A stretch of 64,000 nt of DNA from a virus: positions 1 through 64,000 of the IMG/VR virus record IMGVR_UViG_3300041407_000075. One strand, given 5' to 3'. A program made the position numbers and the translations under genes. Position 1 is the stretch's first letter; the number at the start of each line of letters is the position of its first letter. The notes beneath the pieces were generated by a model, which was not told the origin of the DNA, did not search any database, and saw only the letters and a list, made by a program, of their open reading frames with translations. Positions 7,755 to 46,169 of this stretch are shown here, piece after piece.

Positions 7755-9761
7755 TTGCAGATCGCCAAGTACTTTTCTTCCATCGGGTTTTCTGTTGATG
7801 TTGCTTCTGTCAAAAAAGTTGACAAAGCTATTGATCATGTTGAAAACAGGCTTAAAAAGCTGGGAACATTTGCCAACAAACCTATTACGTTGTCTATTGG
7901 CAGTTTCGATGTAGATCAGCGTAGGCTGAATGTTGCATTAGGAACAGCATTAGATATCGCATCTTCTCGATTAGTGTTTGAAATCAGCAGGTTTGCTGTA
8001 GATCAGATGCACCTAAACCGCGTGATGACAGCAGCCACTATTCAAGCCTCTCGTGTTGCCGGACAGAGTGCAACCATTCGACCTAACGTTCATGTGAATG
8101 GAGTTGTTGGTGGTGGAAGGGTATCCCATGTTGCTGGTGCTGTCGGCGGCGGACTAATTGGTAGGGGTGTTTCTGGGCTATATGGTCCAGCACTTGCTTT
8201 AGGTTTGGGTGGTTATGGTCTGAGTGCTCTTAATCAACGCAACCAAGAAGTAGTTAGTGCACAACTCCAATCAACCGCAGTAGTTCAACAAGCGGGTGGA
8301 AGTGCTCAACAGGGTAAGGATTCTTTTGAATACCTTCGCAGTGAAGGACAAAGAATTGGTTATAATTACTTAGATGCTTCTGGTGATTATAATAAACTAA
8401 TCTCCGGCCTTACTGGCTCGGGTATTGGTTTAAAAGAAAGTCAAAAAGTATTCTCCGGCTTTGCTGAACTTGCCCGTGTAAACAAACTTGATAAAACAAC
8501 TCAGAACCGCTTGTTCCGAGCCTTGTCTCAAGTGGCCGGTAAAGGTAAGTTGATGTCTGAGGAACTTACTGGACAGATTGCAGAGGCGCTTCCCGGTGGT
8601 ACAGCACTGTTCGCACAAGCTTATCAGGCAAAGATTGGTGGTAATAAGACAGGCGCTGAGGCCATTCAACAGCTTTTAGCTGATATGAAGAAAGGCAAAG
8701 TAACCAGCGATATCCTCACTTATGCGGGTGCTGCTGCTTCTCAAAGAGCGAACCAAGGCGGTGCTCTCGGTACGGCAAGTCAAGCCTCTCAGGCTGAACA
8801 AGCTCGTTATCAAAACTCTGTAAATGATATGGCGGTGCTGGCATCTGGTGCTGGTGTAGAAGAGGGTTTTGCCCGTATATTCCGCACACTCACAGCTGGG
8901 TTGAGCGAAAGCAGTGATCTTGTCACAACCCTAGCAGAAGGCTTTAATGAAGCCACTAAGTGGGCAGACGATTTACTTCTATTTCCTCAATCATTTGTTA
9001 GGGCGTTGGAAGGCAAGGATAGTCTAGTTGCTGATTGGCTGGGGATCGATGATACAAATCAACTTATCTCTGACTGGAAAGAAATTAAAGGGTTGTGGGA
9101 GCAAATAACAGCTATCAAGCCTGAAGATACGTTTGGTAATTTTCTTCCGACAATTGAAGCAACAGCAAGAGAAATTGCTGGGATCATAGGGTTAGTTGGT
9201 AGGTTCAAACAGTGGAATGACAATGCCTCAGCTAGTGCTGATATTGTCCAAGCTGATATTGCCTCTAGGGGTGATGGGCCTGTCTCAAACTTCTTCGCTG
9301 GGCTTGGTGGGAGCTTAGCAGGCCTCAGCGCATATATATCAACACCGTTTGATGTTCAAGAATCTAACCAGTATAAAGACTATGTAACTAATGAATATGG
9401 TCGTGGTGCTCAGGTTATGAAGGACCAAGAACAGTTGAAAGGTATTTCCGAGAACTTCAGACTGCAAAACCTTGACCCTCTATCATCCTCCCAAGAGGGT
9501 GCGGACGCCTATAATGATGCACTATCTAATGAGTTTAAAGGTTTTACCGATACCAACAAGCAATCAGCATTAGAAAAAGCTGCCGAAGTCACCAACAATA
9601 ACACTCAATCAAATCAGATTGATATTGTTGTAAACGTTGATGGTTCAACTCTTGCTGGTATGGATGCTAACGCACAAGCTCAAGCGATTGGTGAAGCTGT
9701 AGCAAATATGTTTGTTCAGTCCTTTGATCAAGTGAATGTTCAATTCCCCGTAAAACAATAA
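7755..9761 (+). CDS. Tail tape measure protein
   Basis: 668 residues starting at TTG 7755 behind a GGGG-type ribosome site. Residues ~190-280 (Y-N-Y-L-D-A-S-G-D-Y, G-L-T-G-S-G, A-L-S-Q-V-A-G-K-G, L-P-G-G) match the tape-measure N-terminal domain. The rest is Ala/Gly/Gln-rich with a glycine-rich stretch near 120-155 that may cross membranes. Tape measure length sets tail length, so at 668 residues the tail should be fairly short. The C-terminus would contact the hub. Confidence 0.85.
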   Translation: MQIAKYFSSIGFSVDVASVKKVDKAIDHVENRLKKLGTFANKPITLSIGSFDVDQRRLNVALGTALDIASSRLVFEISRFAVDQMHLNRVMTAATIQASRVAGQSATIRPNVHVNGVVGGGRVSHVAGAVGGGLIGRGVSGLYGPALALGLGGYGLSALNQRNQEVVSAQLQSTAVVQQAGGSAQQGKDSFEYLRSEGQRIGYNYLDASGDYNKLISGLTGSGIGLKESQKVFSGFAELARVNKLDKTTQNRLFRALSQVAGKGKLMSEELTGQIAEALPGGTALFAQAYQAKIGGNKTGAEAIQQLLADMKKGKVTSDILTYAGAAASQRANQGGALGTASQASQAEQARYQNSVNDMAVLASGAGVEEGFARIFRTLTAGLSESSDLVTTLAEGFNEATKWADDLLLFPQSFVRALEGKDSLVADWLGIDDTNQLISDWKEIKGLWEQITAIKPEDTFGNFLPTIEATAREIAGIIGLVGRFKQWNDNASASADIVQADIASRGDGPVSNFFAGLGGSLAGLSAYISTPFDVQESNQYKDYVTNEYGRGAQVMKDQEQLKGISENFRLQNLDPLSSSQEGADAYNDALSNEFKGFTDTNKQSALEKAAEVTNNNTQSNQIDIVVNVDGSTLAGMDANAQAQAIGEAVANMFVQSFDQVNVQFPVKQ

Positions 9762-9770
9762 GGAGCGCCT

Positions 9771-10568
9771 ATGTCGCTGGCAATCGAATGGGGCGACTCC
9801 TCTATTCAAGATGGTGGATTCATCTACTGTGATGCGGTAGTTTCGTATACTCAGAACTATGCAGGTCAAGTAACAAAGCACCCAATTGACGCGGGGGGCA
9901 ACGTTACCGACCACTACATTAGGTCTAACCCAGTCTTCACAATTGGTGCGGTAATTACTGGTGTTGATATTTCCACTGGTACTTACCTGATTCAAGACTT
10001 GGATGGCAACAACCCTTACAACAGTAACCAAGCTCCTAATGCTGTTAGTGTAAACTCCACAGATCAAAGTGTTTTGAAGAAGTTTATCCCAGACAGCATT
10101 GGTCAGTTCCTCTCTGACAGCCAACCGGAAGTTGTTGTAGACAGTAGACGTGCTGATCTCCTTGAACAAATTAGACAAGCTCTGATTGATCTTACTGCTG
10201 GTGTTGTCTTCAATGATAAGACTGGTAACTTTGATCCGAGTATTCAACTTGTTCGACTATTTGAATACGACAATACACTTCTGCGTAAAGTAATCAACAA
10301 TCTTGTAATGACAAAGATTACTTTCAAGGAAGATCCAAATACTGGGTATGGTTTGTATTGTGATATTACTTTTGAGCAAGTGACTTTTGCTTTCTTAAAG
10401 AAAACTACTATACCAAAAGACGTACAAGACTCTCTTAAAAAGAAAGCTTCCAGTAAAGCATCTAAAGGTAAACAAGACAGCACACCTCAGAATGTTGATG
10501 GAGCAGCCGCAGGAAGTAATGCCCCCAAAGACACAGACCCACTAAGACAGGCAAGGGAAAATGGCTGA
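9771..10568 (+). CDS. Dit-like baseplate hub protein
   Basis: 265 residues after the tape measure. The N-terminal region (S-F-I-Y-type opening with F-I-Y-C-D-A-V-V, N-A-V-S-V-N) resembles the Dit-like N-terminal domain of phages with DUF3383-type sheaths, which forms the first baseplate ring under the tube. The last ~45 residues are Lys/Ser/Asp-rich and probably disordered. It overlaps the plug gene by 8 bases. Confidence 0.65.
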   Translation: MSLAIEWGDSSIQDGGFIYCDAVVSYTQNYAGQVTKHPIDAGGNVTDHYIRSNPVFTIGAVITGVDISTGTYLIQDLDGNNPYNSNQAPNAVSVNSTDQSVLKKFIPDSIGQFLSDSQPEVVVDSRRADLLEQIRQALIDLTAGVVFNDKTGNFDPSIQLVRLFEYDNTLLRKVINNLVMTKITFKEDPNTGYGLYCDITFEQVTFAFLKKTTIPKDVQDSLKKKASSKASKGKQDSTPQNVDGAAAGSNAPKDTDPLRQARENG

Positions 10569-10896
10569 TAAATACATAGCAATGCCTTTGTTCAGTGATG
10601 CGTACTACACTTACACCATATCCTTTCAAGGTGACTCATATATTTTTGAGTTTATCTATAATGAAAGGGCTCAGTTATACTTCATCAATCTTTATGATGC
10701 AGATAACAACCCTATTGTGTTGGGGGAAGCTTTAGTTCCCAATTACCCGCTATTCTTAGATTATGCAATCTTCCCCCTTACGGGGTTTATTTGGATGGAA
10801 GAGAAAGCAGATATTATCAGTGAACCTTATAAAGTTTATCCTGATTCTATTGATCAATATTACAACCTTTTCTATATCTATACAGAGGAAGACTAA
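10561..10896 (+). CDS. Baseplate plug protein (cyanophage Pam3 gp18-like)
   Basis: 111 residues, rich in Tyr/Phe, with F-S-D-A-Y-Y-T-Y, G-D-S-Y-I-F-E-F-I-Y-N-E and Y-F-I-N-L-Y-D-A. This is the small beta-barrel family typified by the plug of the cyanophage Pam3 baseplate, which sits in the hub lumen. It overlaps both neighbours, so the hub genes are translated as one coupled block. Confidence 0.7.
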   Translation: MADKYIAMPLFSDAYYTYTISFQGDSYIFEFIYNERAQLYFINLYDADNNPIVLGEALVPNYPLFLDYAIFPLTGFIWMEEKADIISEPYKVYPDSIDQYYNLFYIYTEED

Positions 10897-11795
10897 TGGA
10901 GCTTATCCAGAGAAACCGCCAGTATGTTCTAATCATTGGTGACAGTAACTCTGGTGAAGCTCTGGAGGTTACTGACCTTCAAGTCACTTTTGATATCAGC
11001 AAGAGTTCTGATAATAAAAAGAAAACTAATAGTGCTGCTATTGAAATTTATAACCTATCAGAAGACCACATCAGGCTTCTTGACACGGATTATCCAGCAG
11101 CAGTGTTTTCAGCCGGTTATTTAGACACAGGCGGTCCAAAACGTTTGTTCTCTGGTCAGGTTACTCACGTAACCACTCGTAAATCAGGTACTGAACGGAT
11201 TACACAGATTACTCTAGGGACGGGTTACACAGAGTTGAACCATCAAGTGTTGTCTGAGTTTGTTCCAGAAGGACAACCACCAAGACTTGCTGCCGAAAGG
11301 CTTATTCGTGCCATTGGGGCTGACAGAGGCGTATTTAACGGAACCAACTTAAACAACCCCCTCATATATGGGTATCCGCTTAGCGGAACACCTAAAGAGA
11401 TGTTGGATGAGATTTGTGAGAAGTATGCTTGTAACTGGCAGTTAGATGACGGTGTTGCCTACATCCACGACAATGATAGAGGTAATACAGAGAATTTTCA
11501 ACAGGCCTATGTTATCTCCAAGTATACGGGTCTTATTGAAAGTGCTTACAGGGTGTCGGGTGATCGCCAACGTTCGAAGAAAGATAAAGTTAAGAAGCCC
11601 GGAATACAGATGAAAATCCTTTTGAATTCTGATATTCGTGCTGGGGATATTATCCGTCTAGAAGATACTCTTATCACAGGATGGTTTAAAGTAGAGTCAC
11701 TTAGACACTATGGTGGCTGGCGTTCTCCGGGCTGGTACACGGATATCAAAGCAACTAGTCTAGAGAAGGTTGTTCAAAAAGGTGGTGGTTCATGA
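10896..11795 (+). CDS. Baseplate hub protein (gp27/gpD-like)
   Basis: 299 residues. It begins with a hub-like strand (Y-V-L-I-I-G-D) and contains N-S-A-A-I-E-I-Y-N-L-S, then L-F-S-G-Q-V-T and a C-terminal R-A-G-D-I-I-R-L segment, the pattern of XkdQ/gpD/gp27-type hub subunits that link tube and spike. Ends four bases into the spike gene (ATGA). Confidence 0.7.
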   Translation: MELIQRNRQYVLIIGDSNSGEALEVTDLQVTFDISKSSDNKKKTNSAAIEIYNLSEDHIRLLDTDYPAAVFSAGYLDTGGPKRLFSGQVTHVTTRKSGTERITQITLGTGYTELNHQVLSEFVPEGQPPRLAAERLIRAIGADRGVFNGTNLNNPLIYGYPLSGTPKEMLDEICEKYACNWQLDDGVAYIHDNDRGNTENFQQAYVISKYTGLIESAYRVSGDRQRSKKDKVKKPGIQMKILLNSDIRAGDIIRLEDTLITGWFKVESLRHYGGWRSPGWYTDIKATSLEKVVQKGGGS

Positions 11796-35934: not shown

Positions 35935-37647
35935 CTATTCCTTAATTGCAATATATGAATTGACATCGCGTATGAACATTGCTGAATAATCAAGACCTTC
36001 CATCTCAAGTTTAGTTTCTGTCTCCCACCAGTTAACCCATTTATCATCCTCCCCAATAAGGTCAGTATCAATAATATATTCAAAACCGTCTGTATTACAC
36101 ATTACAATCTGCACATTACAGTGATCAATCAACTTCTCCATGAGCATACATAGCGATAACTGTCCACCGATAGTAATACTCATTGTATACGCTGGGTCAT
36201 AAAGTGGGCTAAACTCGTTATTCGTTTCCCCGTACGAACCATTCAAAGCTAGTTTGAGTGCAGCGTTACCCGCTGAACCTTTTGCTGTCTTTGTGCGCTC
36301 GTCATATAGTGAAGCATTAACATCACAGAAAGTCGTACCTAAGTGTTTAGGATAAATCTGATTTGAAATCCCCATGTTTGGATAAAAAGATTTTACATCG
36401 AGCGAACGAATCTTTCTTTTCTCTGTACTTCTAATTGTACCTTGTTTGGCGCCGTGGATACCCCCCACACCGTAGTCATATCGAAACCCATTGATTACTA
36501 CGTTGAGAGTTTCTGCTACGTTCCAACACCAGTAATAGCTCTTTGCTCCTTTAGGGCTCTTAAGCTCTTTCTCTTCAATCCAACCCATCGGTTGCTCTTT
36601 CTTCAGTTCAACAAGTTGCTCTTCTTTTGGGTAGAAGGTTTTACTCCGAGTCCCTTTAAAATCATCGAAGTCATACTTTGTACAGTCAGCTTGATTACCA
36701 AGTTTCTTTTTCTTCACCACCATTTCAGCATACTTAGCAACATCCCCCAACTGATGTTCCATCAAATCACTGAACACACCCTTTGTCTCAGTAATAACCT
36801 GATCCTGAAACCATTTATGGACAGCTTGAAATTCAGGTCGGTCAAACTTAATGTAAGGAAATAGACAATCTTTAATGATGATCTTATCACGCTTCGTCTG
36901 CCGGATCTTTCGACCAAACTTAGTCACTTCATAACAACAACCCGGACTCACCTTCTCAAGCGTGCGAATAAACAATTCTTTACCAATCTTCGTGTCATTA
37001 AAATTGGTACAATCAAATCCGAATTGTTTTGTAAGATCACCCCGCAGTTTAAGATTTTCATAAGAATACCAGTAAAACTTTAGTGTCTCGCTAACGTCGT
37101 GTTTGTTGTATTTCAACAATACATCTTTTTCATGATCATTAAGAATCTTTCCAACAGGGAACGGTAAATCCTCAATATTAGGGGATCGCATGTTGTACTC
37201 AAGCATTTTTAGGGATGTAGCCCGAGCGTGGTTATCAAAATGGTGGATTTTAAACAAATCAACCTGTGGGATAATTACATCCTTTTCCTTAATTGCACTA
37301 CCAAACTTCTCATCTTTGCTTGAGTTGATCAACTTCATTGCTACATCATAAATTTGTTTTGCTGTTATCTTAAGTTTTTTATCTGTCCCATGAACAGCAC
37401 GAGCTTTCTCTAGAATGAAATGAAGAACTGGGTAATCGAAGTTCAGGTTGTTAAATCCAACAAAACGATGTCCAGCACTCTTTACCTTACGGAAGAAATC
37501 AAGAAGGTCTTCTACTTCATTTTTACGATCACTAATTTCAAAGGCTCGCATACCTTTGCCGTTTGAGTAGACAGCAGCGAACGTAAAGGTATTTGGATAA
37601 GTTTCGATATCAAAAATCCAGTCCCCCTCAAAGAATTTCTTTTCCAA
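35935..37647 (-). CDS. DNA polymerase family B, N-terminal part (exonuclease and palm)
   Basis: 570 residues from TTG 37647 behind AGGAG. Exonuclease residues Asp13, Glu15 (D-I-E), Asp71 (N-F-D-Y) and Asp184 (H-D-V). Polymerase motif A L-D-V-K-S-F-Y-P (Asp417), motif B K-L-A-L-N-G-S-Y-G, motif C C-N-T-D-G (Asp520). It ends at R-D-V-N-S-Y-I-A-I-K-E, just where the thumb should begin; the rest is the 34935 gene. It is the phage replicase, working with the primase-helicase and SSB. Confidence 0.9.
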   Translation of the reverse strand: MEKKFFEGDWIFDIETYPNTFTFAAVYSNGKGMRAFEISDRKNEVEDLLDFFRKVKSAGHRFVGFNNLNFDYPVLHFILEKARAVHGTDKKLKITAKQIYDVAMKLINSSKDEKFGSAIKEKDVIIPQVDLFKIHHFDNHARATSLKMLEYNMRSPNIEDLPFPVGKILNDHEKDVLLKYNKHDVSETLKFYWYSYENLKLRGDLTKQFGFDCTNFNDTKIGKELFIRTLEKVSPGCCYEVTKFGRKIRQTKRDKIIIKDCLFPYIKFDRPEFQAVHKWFQDQVITETKGVFSDLMEHQLGDVAKYAEMVVKKKKLGNQADCTKYDFDDFKGTRSKTFYPKEEQLVELKKEQPMGWIEEKELKSPKGAKSYYWCWNVAETLNVVINGFRYDYGVGGIHGAKQGTIRSTEKRKIRSLDVKSFYPNMGISNQIYPKHLGTTFCDVNASLYDERTKTAKGSAGNAALKLALNGSYGETNNEFSPLYDPAYTMSITIGGQLSLCMLMEKLIDHCNVQIVMCNTDGFEYIIDTDLIGEDDKWVNWWETETKLEMEGLDYSAMFIRDVNSYIAIKE

Positions 37648-37692: not shown

Positions 37693-39447
37693 TTAAAAGT
37701 CAACCATGTGTGCTGGAATTTCTAGACTTTCCACCGATGGTGGCTCATCCATTAGACTTTCTTCAATATATGGATCAGAGGTCGCAAACATATGTGTAGT
37801 CGCACCATCATAACGCAACCATCCTGCGTCTCCGGTATTCCCTGTCCGACGACATTTGACCAATTGCAGCTTAGTGGCTGACTTTTTAATCGGACAAGGG
37901 TTCATCTTATCACGGCTGATCAAAATTGTATTGAATGCAATTTGGTTCAGACTTGAGGAACCCATTAATTGATATTCAGTTACAGCGTGTGGATTCTCTT
38001 CAGAAGGCTTGCGCATGTGTGAGATAGCAACTACACAAGTATCCGTCTCCTTTGCAAACTTCAACAGTGTATCCATAAACTCAATGATTGCACCGTTATC
38101 GCTACTGTTCACACCAGCCTGAACTGGATCGATAACAATCACATCACAGTTCTCAGCCTTCGCCAGATAGTTAAGTTTATCAAAAATCTCAGCAGTTGAA
38201 ATACTACCTTGATGGTCAACATAAACGAACTGATCTTTCTTTGCAAGGTTCTCAAAGAAACGATTCTTCAGAGCTTCAATATCTACGTTCTCACGATTGA
38301 CAGTCCGCAAGTTCATACCAGCGTCAAGCGACAGCAGATCACGTACAACTTCGCGTTTGGTGCCTTCCAGATACATCGCACCTACTTTAAACTGTGTGTT
38401 CTCAATGAGTGAGTAGACTACGTTGTTTACAATCGAGCTTTTACCGATAGATGTCAATGCACCAATGATTGTGATTTCACCCTTTTCCATACCACCATTC
38501 ATCATTTCATTCAAGTGCGACCAAGACGAAGGAAATGGAATCTTTACGTTATTGTCTTCACTTTCAAAATCATCCCACATTTGACTCAAGTGTAAAACAT
38601 CAACCCGGCTAAATGGTGTAGCTTTCCAGAAGAGTTGTTTAAGCTCTGCTGTACGACCAGTTTTAACCATGTCAGAGGCATCTTTAACGCCTTGTGGAAG
38701 CTTTGCAATGAATGCCTTACCCGGAGTAAGGAGTCGTGCAGCTTCTTCTACATACTTCTGTGCCGATTCATCTTGATCAAACGAAAGGATTACTTTAGAA
38801 AAACTGTTAATATATTCAAAGTTAGCCTTGAATTGTTTGATAATACTACCATCACCACACGTTACGCTAACACATGGCGTCCAGTATTCTACACCATCTT
38901 TCTTCGAATAGAGAGCTTGGGCAAATGCCAGAGCATCTTCTTCTCCCGTGGTGATTACCAAATACTTTTGACCAGCTTCAAAGACAGACTGACCAAAGAG
39001 TTCATTAGTTGCCTTAGTGCTACCAATTCCAACAAAGTCTTTAGGATTCAAACGTTTCTTAAATCCTACAATCTTACCATCAGATGTCGATGGATAATAA
39101 CGAGCTGTCACATCAAAGCCATTTTCAACTTCTGTGTGGACGCCATATTTAGTCGATACCGGCTGACCAATGCCACGTTCTTTCCAACCACGAAATGGGA
39201 TTGCTTGAATGTTTGTAAAATCCACTACTTCTGACACTTTATGTTTCCCCTCTTTAATCTTAATACCAACCTCTTCAAGTTGGTCATGATTGAAGTAATT
39301 TGTGCAAACAAAACAGAACGCATCGTTAACATGCTTTCCATCAATTTCTTTCTGATACACAGCCATACCATCTGACGACGAACAGTCATCTCCAATACAA
39401 GCAGCATGGTACAACAACTCTCCGTCTGGTCGCTCTTGTTTACTCAC
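37693..39447 (-). CDS. Primase-helicase (T7 gp4-like)
   Basis: 584 residues from GTG 39447, preceded by GGAGGGGAG; an upstream TTG in frame is less likely. N-terminal zinc finger (C-I-G-D-D-C and C-F-V-C), a TOPRIM-like region (T-T-G-E-E-D-A, S-F-D-Q-D), then a DnaB-type helicase with Walker A G-A-L-T-S-I-G-K-S-S, Walker B V-I-V-I-D-P-V and a conserved I-S-H-M-R. It unwinds the fork and primes lagging strands. Confidence 0.9.
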   Translation of the reverse strand: MSKQERPDGELLYHAACIGDDCSSSDGMAVYQKEIDGKHVNDAFCFVCTNYFNHDQLEEVGIKIKEGKHKVSEVVDFTNIQAIPFRGWKERGIGQPVSTKYGVHTEVENGFDVTARYYPSTSDGKIVGFKKRLNPKDFVGIGSTKATNELFGQSVFEAGQKYLVITTGEEDALAFAQALYSKKDGVEYWTPCVSVTCGDGSIIKQFKANFEYINSFSKVILSFDQDESAQKYVEEAARLLTPGKAFIAKLPQGVKDASDMVKTGRTAELKQLFWKATPFSRVDVLHLSQMWDDFESEDNNVKIPFPSSWSHLNEMMNGGMEKGEITIIGALTSIGKSSIVNNVVYSLIENTQFKVGAMYLEGTKREVVRDLLSLDAGMNLRTVNRENVDIEALKNRFFENLAKKDQFVYVDHQGSISTAEIFDKLNYLAKAENCDVIVIDPVQAGVNSSDNGAIIEFMDTLLKFAKETDTCVVAISHMRKPSEENPHAVTEYQLMGSSSLNQIAFNTILISRDKMNPCPIKKSATKLQLVKCRRTGNTGDAGWLRYDGATTHMFATSDPYIEESLMDEPPSVESLEIPAHMVDF

Positions 39448-39513
39448 GCCCTTCTCCCCTCCAACACCCTGCAAAGAATATTAATCAAATTGCTTCAAGA
39501 ATAGCAAGGATGT

Positions 39514-43048: not shown

Positions 43049-43438
43049 ATGATGATCGAAGCAATCGTAGAAGTGTGGTGTTCACCTCTTCGCAGGGAAG
43101 ATTATTCTGTAAAAATAATTCCTCTGTTCGCCGGGGAAATGTTCAACGTAGAGGATGACATTAGAGACTACATCAAGTGGGATTTCTATCTGAATACCTT
43201 TGGTGTTGACTATGCAGAAGTCAAGGGTCTGTGGAAGGTTGTGTTCAAGATTTCTGTATCATATAGCACCTATTATACTTATGCCGGACCAGACGATGAC
43301 GTAGATATTGGGCAAGAAGTGCTGTTCAAAGGTCAGTGTCAAGAATGGGCTGAGATGAAATACACTTGGCTTGAGTTGAATGGGAAGATTGATGAGTATT
43401 TTAGTAAGCCTTGGAAGAGGCATGTGATTGGTTTGTAG
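43049..43438 (+). CDS. Early hypothetical protein
   Basis: 129 residues, acidic, Tyr/Trp-rich (S-Y-S-T-Y-Y-T-Y). Last gene of the first rightward cluster; a 182-base gap follows. Function unknown. Confidence 0.55.
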   Translation: MMIEAIVEVWCSPLRREDYSVKIIPLFAGEMFNVEDDIRDYIKWDFYLNTFGVDYAEVKGLWKVVFKISVSYSTYYTYAGPDDDVDIGQEVLFKGQCQEWAEMKYTWLELNGKIDEYFSKPWKRHVIGL

Positions 43439-43620
43439 GTAAATCTCCTGAAACCACCCAATAAACAGTGAATTCAACCTTGTGTTTGGAAGGGTGGATG
43501 TGAGATTATGGTTGTCTGGATTTGAGTGCTTATTCAGATTGATCATTTTTTAACCAAAGCGTTTCCCATATAGTGTTATTGAATAGGAGATGTGTATGTG
43601 TGTAGGAGATTAGATGTAAT

Positions 43621-44961
43621 ATGACAAGAATGGAAGAGAAAGTAAGAGATTTAGAAGGAAGAGAGTTATATTCTGTTCTTATCTCTACAGCTAGAGGTAA
43701 GCCCTTTAGATCGCCTAGTGTGGTCTATAACCATTTGGTATCTCTAATAAATAAAGAATTAAAATACAAGAAGTTTGAAGCTGTAGAATGGTTCTTCACT
43801 AACACAGCAAGAGCCTTACGTGATAATTACATGGGTTTCTCTGTAAAGCTACAAGCTGTCTATTGGACAGGGAACGATTGTGGGATCAGTATTCGTGCTA
43901 TCCATTCAGTATTGGATTACATGAAAGAGAATGATTACATTTATGTACTAAAAGGCAGTCATGATTACAGAAATGAAGACCTTTCTTACATGAGTGTAGT
44001 GAGATTTACTGAAAAACTGGTTGACCTATTCGACAAAAAGGAGCTACTATTGCACATTCCTAGCGTGTCTATGGATTACCCTATTATTTTGAAAGATAGG
44101 AAGACAAAAGAAATGATTGAAGTACAGAAAACAGGCATGGTTGAACAGATGGCAGAGGAAATGCAGCGTTACAATCAGAGTTTGTCTGGTGTTGACGTTC
44201 GTTTTGATGGGAAATCTATCCCTTTGTTGGAATATAAGCGTAGTTTTAGTGGTGATTTCAACAGTGGTGGGAGGTTGTTCGCTCATGGCGGCAGTATTCA
44301 GCTTGTCCCACAGGAATTACGTTTAGCTGCTATTACTATTGATGGTGAGTCTGTAGTAGAGTTAGACTATAGTGCAAATCATCCACGGATTCTGCTAGAA
44401 TTTCTCTGTCAGCGTGATCAAAGTGTATTGGAGTTTGTAGGAAAGGACGTTGATCCATATGCAGCAGACAGTTCGTGCCTGAAAGTTGACACTTTGGCGA
44501 TTGAAGATCATAAATTGCGTTATGGTATTACTAAATATAACCCATCTCGCTCGTTTATGAAACATGCAGTCATGCGTGCATTAAATTGTGATAGCTTTGA
44601 TAAGGCGTTTTCTAGTTTGTCGCATGAATTCTTCACAGATAGTAAGAAGAACATTGCAGATCGTGACTATGTGGGGTTGATTAAACCTGATTGTCGTCTT
44701 GTATTATCTGCAATTTGTGAGCACAACCGACTGATTGCAAATGATTTCTTTCAGGATAAAGGTATTTGGTTACAAAATCTCGACAGTGAAATTGCTTTAC
44801 GTGTAATTGATTTGATGCTACAGTCTGGAGAAGTTGTACTCTGCTGGCATGATAGCTTTCAATGTCGAGCAAGTGCTAAAGAACTATTGCATTCTGCAAT
44901 GATCGAAGCTTGGAACGATGTTCTAGGCTCTAATATTTTCGTAAAGGTGGATCAAAAATGA
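43621..44961 (+). CDS. Divergent family A-like polymerase (Pol I/T7 RNA polymerase superfamily palm)
   Basis: 446 residues. Motif A E-L-D-Y-S-x4-R-I-L (Asp249) mirrors DYSQIELRIL of Pol I. Motif B R310-S-F-M-K314-x2-V-M mirrors T7 RNA polymerase RSVTKRSVM, though the later Tyr is Asn322. Motif C C-W-H-D-S-F (His410, Asp411) mirrors IHDSF of T7 RNA polymerase, preceded by L-D-S-E-I-A like the Pol I helix before motif C. A G-G-R-L-F segment leads into the palm. N-terminal ~130 residues are helical and possibly winged-helix. There is no proofreading domain. DNA or RNA product is undecided. It overlaps the nucleotidyltransferase gene by four bases. Confidence 0.65.
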   Translation: MTRMEEKVRDLEGRELYSVLISTARGKPFRSPSVVYNHLVSLINKELKYKKFEAVEWFFTNTARALRDNYMGFSVKLQAVYWTGNDCGISIRAIHSVLDYMKENDYIYVLKGSHDYRNEDLSYMSVVRFTEKLVDLFDKKELLLHIPSVSMDYPIILKDRKTKEMIEVQKTGMVEQMAEEMQRYNQSLSGVDVRFDGKSIPLLEYKRSFSGDFNSGGRLFAHGGSIQLVPQELRLAAITIDGESVVELDYSANHPRILLEFLCQRDQSVLEFVGKDVDPYAADSSCLKVDTLAIEDHKLRYGITKYNPSRSFMKHAVMRALNCDSFDKAFSSLSHEFFTDSKKNIADRDYVGLIKPDCRLVLSAICEHNRLIANDFFQDKGIWLQNLDSEIALRVIDLMLQSGEVVLCWHDSFQCRASAKELLHSAMIEAWNDVLGSNIFVKVDQK

Positions 44962-45533
44962 CTATCGAAACTCAGAAACAACTAGCTGACAAAGTGTATG
45001 AAGCACTCACTCTCATTGACCCTTCGTGCGTCCTTGCTGGTGGTGCTCCCCGAGATTGGTATTTGGGAACAGAGGCTAATGATCTTGATTTCTACTTCTG
45101 CTCTACCGGATCAACTGTAGACCGTGTAAAGAAACAACTCAATCGTGTTGGTTTTGAAGTGGAAGCTTCAGTTTGTCCTGTGCAATCAGAGCTTTATCAA
45201 TCCATGCCCGGTTTGACACGTATCTGGAATTGTGAATCTGAGACTATGAAGATTCAATTTATTCAAATGGCTGAACCTAAATTCAGATGGGGTGTTGTTA
45301 ATAATATGGATGTCAGTATCTGCAAAGCGTGGTATTCTCAGGTTGGACATATTCATTTGCATCAAGACTTTAAACTGACCATTGCAAGTAAAATTATGTT
45401 TCTGAAAGAAAGTTATTGCTGGGCTAACAAGCATGGTCAGAAAATGAAAGAACGCTTTGAAGGTAAGTTTCACGCTGGTACGAAGGATCAAGCTACACGT
45501 TCTTTGGTGTCCAAAGTGTTGATGGAGATTTAA
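44958..45533 (+). CDS. Nucleotidyltransferase (Pol beta/CCA-adding-like)
   Basis: 191 residues. L-A-G-G-A-P-R-D-W-Y-L-G then N-D-L-D-F-Y is the GG-x-RD-x-LG and DxD signature of class II CCA-adding/poly(A) polymerase-type nucleotidyltransferases. It is much shorter than cellular enzymes (about 400) and lacks tRNA-binding domains. It starts inside the stop of the polymerase-like gene, so the two are made together. It could add nucleotides to RNA or modify a host target; the substrate is unknown. Confidence 0.75.
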   Translation: MTIETQKQLADKVYEALTLIDPSCVLAGGAPRDWYLGTEANDLDFYFCSTGSTVDRVKKQLNRVGFEVEASVCPVQSELYQSMPGLTRIWNCESETMKIQFIQMAEPKFRWGVVNNMDVSICKAWYSQVGHIHLHQDFKLTIASKIMFLKESYCWANKHGQKMKERFEGKFHAGTKDQATRSLVSKVLMEI

Positions 45534-46119: not shown

Positions 46120-46134
46120 AGAAATAACCACCCA

Positions 46135-46169
46135 GGCCGCTTGACGGCCTTTTCTTTTGTCTGTATGAT
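46135..46169 (+). promoter_or_regulatory. Combined terminator hairpin and promoter
   Basis: GGCCG (46135-46139) pairs with CGGCC (46145-46149) and TTTTCTTTT follows: a Rho-independent terminator. The loop and 3' arm also spell TTGACG (46141-46146), which with a 17-base spacer and TATGAT (46164-46169) is a good sigma70 promoter. One element can thus end the upstream operon and start the next. Confidence 0.75.

Follow-up and report, generated by a model that had tools for sequence, protein, structure and literature searches.

A divPolA2-type polymerase with a predicted winged-helix domain in the virus record IMGVR_UViG_3300041407_000075

DivPolA2 is a family of small PolA-like proteins described by Yutin et al. 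2024 (Virol J 21:200; PMC11348598), which were first recognised in barbaviruses, beside PolB, and were also found in related groups. Clade 2 of that study includes Barbavirus and Ounavirinae, the N-terminal domain has no known relationship, and the proteins were proposed to act either as a repair DNA polymerase or as an RNA polymerase (PMC11348598). The TV-Pols, polymerases of transposons and virophages, were described by Iyer et al. 2008 (PMC2579912); in alphaproteobacteria they have resolvase or integrase neighbours, and they were stated never to be linked to nucleases (PMC2579912).

Here we describe a 446-aa protein encoded in an IMG/VR virus record of 90,162 bases, of which positions 1 to 64,000 were analysed (the window). 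The protein belongs to divPolA2, a family that is already known and is not new. To its description we add a winged-helix prediction for the N-terminal domain, the His and Asn residues at two selectivity positions, relatives in bacterial mobile elements that are accompanied by RNase HI, and a conserved element upstream of the gene.

The polymerase gene and its relatives

The original prediction had placed two overlapping genes in this region, one for a polymerase and one for a nucleotidyltransferase. Both open reading frames are real, at the positions given in Table 1, and overlap by four bases (ATGA). The 446-aa protein matches phrog_4756, a family of unknown function. The protein has no match in Pfam (E<=10) or NCBIfam and nothing significant in a PDB sequence search, and PF00476, searched in the window phage genome with positive controls included, gave no match either. 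Its kinship is visible only by structure and profile comparison.

Table 1. Coordinates of the features discussed, in the window or in the contig of the named locus
Feature	Sequence	Position	Strand	Remarks
Conserved non-coding element, 88 bp	window	43436..43523	+	candidate promoter/operator; upstream of polymerase; single copy
divPolA2-type polymerase, 446 aa	window	43621..44961	+	ATG start; phrog_4756, E 1e-76; predicted winged helix (about residues 45-135), then GGR hairpin, palm, O-helix fingers, HDS motif
Nucleotidyltransferase, 191 aa	window	44958..45533	+	ATG start; phrog_10174, E 3.6e-25; overlaps polymerase stop
Replicative DNA polymerase (PolB type), 570 aa	window	35935..37647	-	phrog_1252, E 7.8e-141; homologue annotated family B
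Primase-helicase of the replication module	window	37693..39474	-	phrog_239, E 2.2e-144
Terminator-like hairpin and T-run	window	46134-46150		follows the accessory gene run; count of such sites within ~1.2 sd of shuffles
RNase HI gene	L184	10816-11334		
RNase HI gene	L191	10816-11295		
RNase HI gene	L192	10981-11475		
RNase HI gene	L060	6883-7470		appears frame-shifted
divPolA2-like protein, 748 aa	L198 (G001)	8739-10982		long C-terminal extension
Large unannotated gene	L058	4674-5693		directly upstream of polymerase; prophage; TOPRIM-like sequence by eye, no Pfam match
Large unannotated gene	L059	4080-5441		directly upstream of polymerase; prophage of the same Xanthobacteraceae MAG as L058

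The three polymerase motifs that had been proposed are all present: motif A is D249-Y-S-A-N-H-P-R-I-L, motif B is R310-S-F-M-K314-H-A-V-M318-R-A-L-N322, with Asn in place of the usual Tyr as had been noted, and motif C is H410-D411-S-F. Conservation was assessed in an alignment of 76 relatives (53 phage and 23 bacterial). R218, R234 and D249 are each found in 76/76 relatives, R310 and K314 in 75/76 each, H410-D411 in all 75 sequences with letters at these columns, and H254 and N322 in 71/76 each; the same invariant residue set was obtained from an independent alignment of metagenomic phages. The motif residues are thus kept in homologues, to a degree far beyond chance. The gene is also under strong purifying selection, with dN/dS of ~0.02 and ~0.11 against its two nearest relatives (dN 0.007 and 0.14, dS 0.32 and 1.31).

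Relatives of the polymerase were found by tblastn in 238 phage records at 20-33% identity, from phages of Rheinheimera, Vibrio (including ICP1 ORF100), Aeromonas, Pseudoalteromonas, Shewanella and others. The Barba phages were reached at E ~1e-4, with divPolA2 proteins that align along their whole length, core included, and a structural search of BFVD returned the Barba31A 'DNA polymerase' at E 1.4e-22. The window phage represents a different lineage from the barbaviruses of the divPolA2 paper. As in the latter, its protein coexists with PolB, has a palm with catalytic residues and no 3'-5' exonuclease, appears to carry an unrelated N-terminal domain and lies in a variable neighbourhood, and several paralogues per phage sometimes occur in the present set as well.

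Predicted structure and nucleotide-selection residues

An AlphaFold model of the 446-aa protein, built from a 36-sequence alignment, reached a pLDDT of 91.8 and a pTM of 0.87 and contains a right-hand palm. Foldseek against the PDB gave 135 matches at E<=1e-3, and every one of the 50 listed is a family A DNA polymerase; the best match has an E-value of 1.8e-6 and a probability of 1.00, with low TM-scores (~0.3), because the polymerase and the matched structures differ outside the core. The order of elements in Klenow fragment served as the reference for the model, which follows it from the TGR strand through the last strand: GGR strand (218), motif A strand (243-250), O helix (308-322), Q helix (381-401), HDS hairpin (407-416) and R helix (417-435). 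By its model, the protein is therefore a family A-type right-hand polymerase, as the original prediction of a divergent extra polymerase had it. In the profile comparison proposed with that prediction, hhalign aligned GGR218...D249 of the family with TGR...DYS of the PolA profile at E 0.0033, and the T7 RNAP profile gave no significant alignment.

By alignment and motif spacing, H254 would occupy the position of the PolA steric-gate Glu, where T7 RNAP has Gly, and N322 that of the O-helix Tyr (Tyr639 in T7 RNAP). Gly was found at the sugar position in 17/17 T7-type RNAPs compared. The bulky side chain of His254 therefore favours a kept steric gate against ribose. The near-invariant pair, unlike that of either Pol I or T7 RNAP, appears from these sequence comparisons to be a newly described feature of the family.

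The likeness to Pol I and T7 gp5 (PF00476) extends to the fold, the order of secondary structure, the TGR-type Arg, the Asp residues of motifs A and C, and the Arg and Lys of the O helix. In contrast to these enzymes, the 446-aa protein is half the size, lacks the exonuclease domain, appears to have no recognised thumb, has His for the steric-gate Glu and Asn for the O-helix Tyr, and matches no Pfam model; His254 and Asn322 set it apart from the PolA motifs DYSQIE and R..AK..NFG..YG, respectively. With T7-type RNAPs (PF00940) it shares the HDSF motif C, a GR-x-Y/F hairpin and an RSxxKxxVM O helix, but it has His for Gly at the sugar position and Asn for Tyr639, differs at positions of the motifs DGSCSG and R..TK..VM.L.YG, again has no Pfam match, and contains none of the N-terminal and specificity regions of those enzymes. 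Like the TV-Pols it is a small family A polymerase of mobile elements, with resolvase or integrase neighbours for the bacterial relatives only; it differs from them in that no link to a D5 helicase was seen, and the RNase HI linkage of some relatives contrasts with the stated lack of nuclease links in TV-Pols.

The N domain was also modelled alone, at a pLDDT of 85.9, and residues 52-129 follow the order H1-S1-H2-H3-S2-wing-S3. The 50 Foldseek matches listed for it are mostly winged-helix proteins (MarR-type, SarA, ZitR, PaaX, Fur, CodY and ribosomal eS10 among them), the best at E 0.03 and none at E<=1e-3, and Pfam gave scattered sub-threshold winged-helix matches only. The domain is likely a winged helix, a prediction that is new for this family.

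Genomic surroundings in phages and bacterial mobile elements

The downstream 191-aa protein carries the motifs GGAPRD and DLD (GGxxRD...DxD). It is a nucleotidyltransferase, as had been recognised, and resembles the head of class II CCA/poly(A) polymerases. It is not fused to the polymerase; the two are adjacent, separate open reading frames. The suggestion that they work together in RNA tailing, priming or transcription draws on their overlap in the window genome and on the presence of both families in some phages, but the arrangement is not conserved. In contig L001 the polymerase is 99% identical and the DNA is 94% identical over window positions 43434-44961, and this identity extends to the polymerase stop codon and no further (6341 in L001, 44961 in the window); what follows there is an unrelated 64-aa gene in place of the nucleotidyltransferase, both genes starting in an ATGA overlap. 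Nor does the nucleotidyltransferase adjoin the polymerase in L002 or any other fetched locus (>50 loci). Both genes are also widespread on their own: the polymerase occurs in 115 Rheinheimera phages, a host not named for the nucleotidyltransferase. The latter family has 193 phage records; 104 of them are Escherichia phages, none of which is in the polymerase tally. In phages that have the two together, tens of kb separate them (41.5 kb versus 12.1 kb in PhAER-4). For these reasons we regard the pairing as a local arrangement, and the two proteins almost certainly do not form a dedicated system; the nucleotidyltransferase was rejected as a partner of the polymerase. Neighbourhoods of divPolA2 likewise vary between annotated phages.

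The separate family B replicase that had been predicted is encoded by the 570-aa gene in Table 1, and the family B relatives of this phrog_1252 replicase include those of barbaviruses.

The 88-bp element was found at 10 distinct loci, with one copy per genome searched. At nine of them it precedes, by ~70-230 bp, a divPolA2 gene of the same orientation; the remaining copy is on a 15-kb fragment in which no polymerase was found. Between the window and locus L039 the element is 91% identical over 79 nt, and the divPolA2 proteins are only ~20% identical. The contigs of L201-L203 and L206 (G406-G411) have two divPolA2 genes, with the element before only one. It matched neither isolate phages nor Rfam. 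The single-sequence folding z-score was -1.45, the consensus fold was equalled by 39/200 column shuffles, and the alignment holds few compensatory changes. A structured RNA, such as a retron- or DRT-like template, was rejected on the lack of an Rfam match and of a convincing structure, which makes a DNA site more likely; a generic repeated early promoter was rejected because the element is single-copy in each genome searched. In the simplest reading it is a promoter/operator region at which divPolA2 alleles are exchanged. It could be an operator or an allele-exchange junction.

Beyond phages, phrog_4756 matches were found in 32/385 alphaproteobacterial genomes sampled (~8%). The bacterial loci inspected contain a tyrosine integrase in 13/23 cases and a serine recombinase in 7/23, and two belong to prophages that encode portal and capsid proteins. 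Four of the 23 have an RNase HI gene next to the polymerase, in the same orientation and 38 to ~230 bp away. The genomes of these four loci have an additional rnhA elsewhere; among nine comparison genomes, eight have one rnhA and one has none. Pol I and RNase HI are the classical pair for RNA-primer removal. Locus L196 (G107 contig 14) consists of a tandem 8,949-bp unit, probably a small plasmid, in which RepA_C, polymerase and ParA genes stand in a row together with a serine recombinase and a putative adenine methylase. Its polymerase has 597 aa, with a possible extra C-terminal HTH, and is an outlier at positions 254 and 322. In a plasmid collection, divPolA2 relatives were present in only 2-3 of 72,556 records.

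Possible functions

The reading we prefer, at about even probability, is that the 446-aa protein is an accessory template-dependent DNA polymerase, free of exonuclease, which acts at RNA primers or gaps and is brought to DNA by its winged helix. In its favour, the Gly of RNA polymerases has given way to a bulky His, the structural matches listed are DNA polymerases, an RNA polymerase coexists with the protein in Shewanella phage KASIA, and relatives are accompanied by RNase HI and, in one case, by a plasmid Rep gene. The mini-polymerase would use dNTPs, so that RNA-primed or gapped DNA would be its natural substrate, and it would extend RNA primers or fill gaps during replication or repair of phage or mobile-element DNA; bulk replication would be left to the PolB of the phage, and the 88-bp element may serve as the polymerase promoter or operator. 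Several observations count against this reading. The Tyr/Phe of DNA-polymerase motif B is replaced (Asn322; Met/Leu318), the HDSF motif C and the R-S-x2-K-x2-V-M motif B are like those of T7 RNAP, the gene is not part of the replication operon, RNase HI was seen next to the polymerase only in distant bacterial relatives, and no single significant match stands behind the winged-helix assignment.

Since motif C and the O helix (spacing R-x3-K-x3-M-x3) are also T7 RNAP-like, we keep as an unlikely but serious candidate a single-subunit RNA polymerase or RNA primase, in which the winged helix would read a promoter or origin and the palm would make RNA. T7 RNAP belongs to the same superfamily, the divPolA2 authors offered this option too (PMC11348598), Asn322 could contact a 2'-OH, and no PF00940 match was obtained in the window phage in a search without positive control. 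The His and Asn residues, the missing N-terminal and specificity domains and the listed PDB matches all argue against RNA synthesis, as does KASIA, where a T7-like RNAP is encoded close to the polymerase and would make such a role redundant. A prim-pol of the TV-Pol kind, priming as well as extending the DNA of mobile elements, is quite improbable: the integrase and serine-recombinase elements of the bacterial relatives recall alphaproteobacterial TV-Pols (PMC2579912) and a virophage (Zamilon) replication protein is among the structural matches (E 4.1e-5), but there is no adjoining D5 helicase, the phage has its own primase-helicase, and the family profile (A10) did not match the reported TV-Pol of phage Ma-LMM01 in a search without positive control. 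That the protein has lost catalysis, for example as a DNA-binding regulator keeping a dead polymerase fold, would suit the predicted winged helix and the unusual residues at two selectivity positions; it is very improbable, since practically all 76 relatives retain both catalytic Asp residues, the O-helix Arg and Lys and the GGR Arg.

A bolder and doubtful proposal is that divPolA2 is a site-directed mini-polymerase, whose winged helix would bind the 88-bp element or similar sites and load a palm that lacks an exonuclease and selects the sugar in an unusual way (His steric gate, O-helix Asn), so that synthesis would be started or regulated at chosen RNA-DNA hybrid sites. If this were true, the family would stand apart from both Pol I and T7 RNAP as a polymerase subclass of its own. 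DivPolA2 samples the region of the superfamily between DNA and RNA polymerases, as represented by these two enzymes, and its genes span well over 200 phage records, including Vibrio phage ICP1, with related genes in ~8% of the alphaproteobacterial genomes sampled. The His/Asn pair, the predicted DNA-binding domain, the RNase HI neighbours and the upstream element turn the earlier question, repair DNA polymerase or RNA polymerase (PMC11348598), into one that can be tested with specific mutants and assays.
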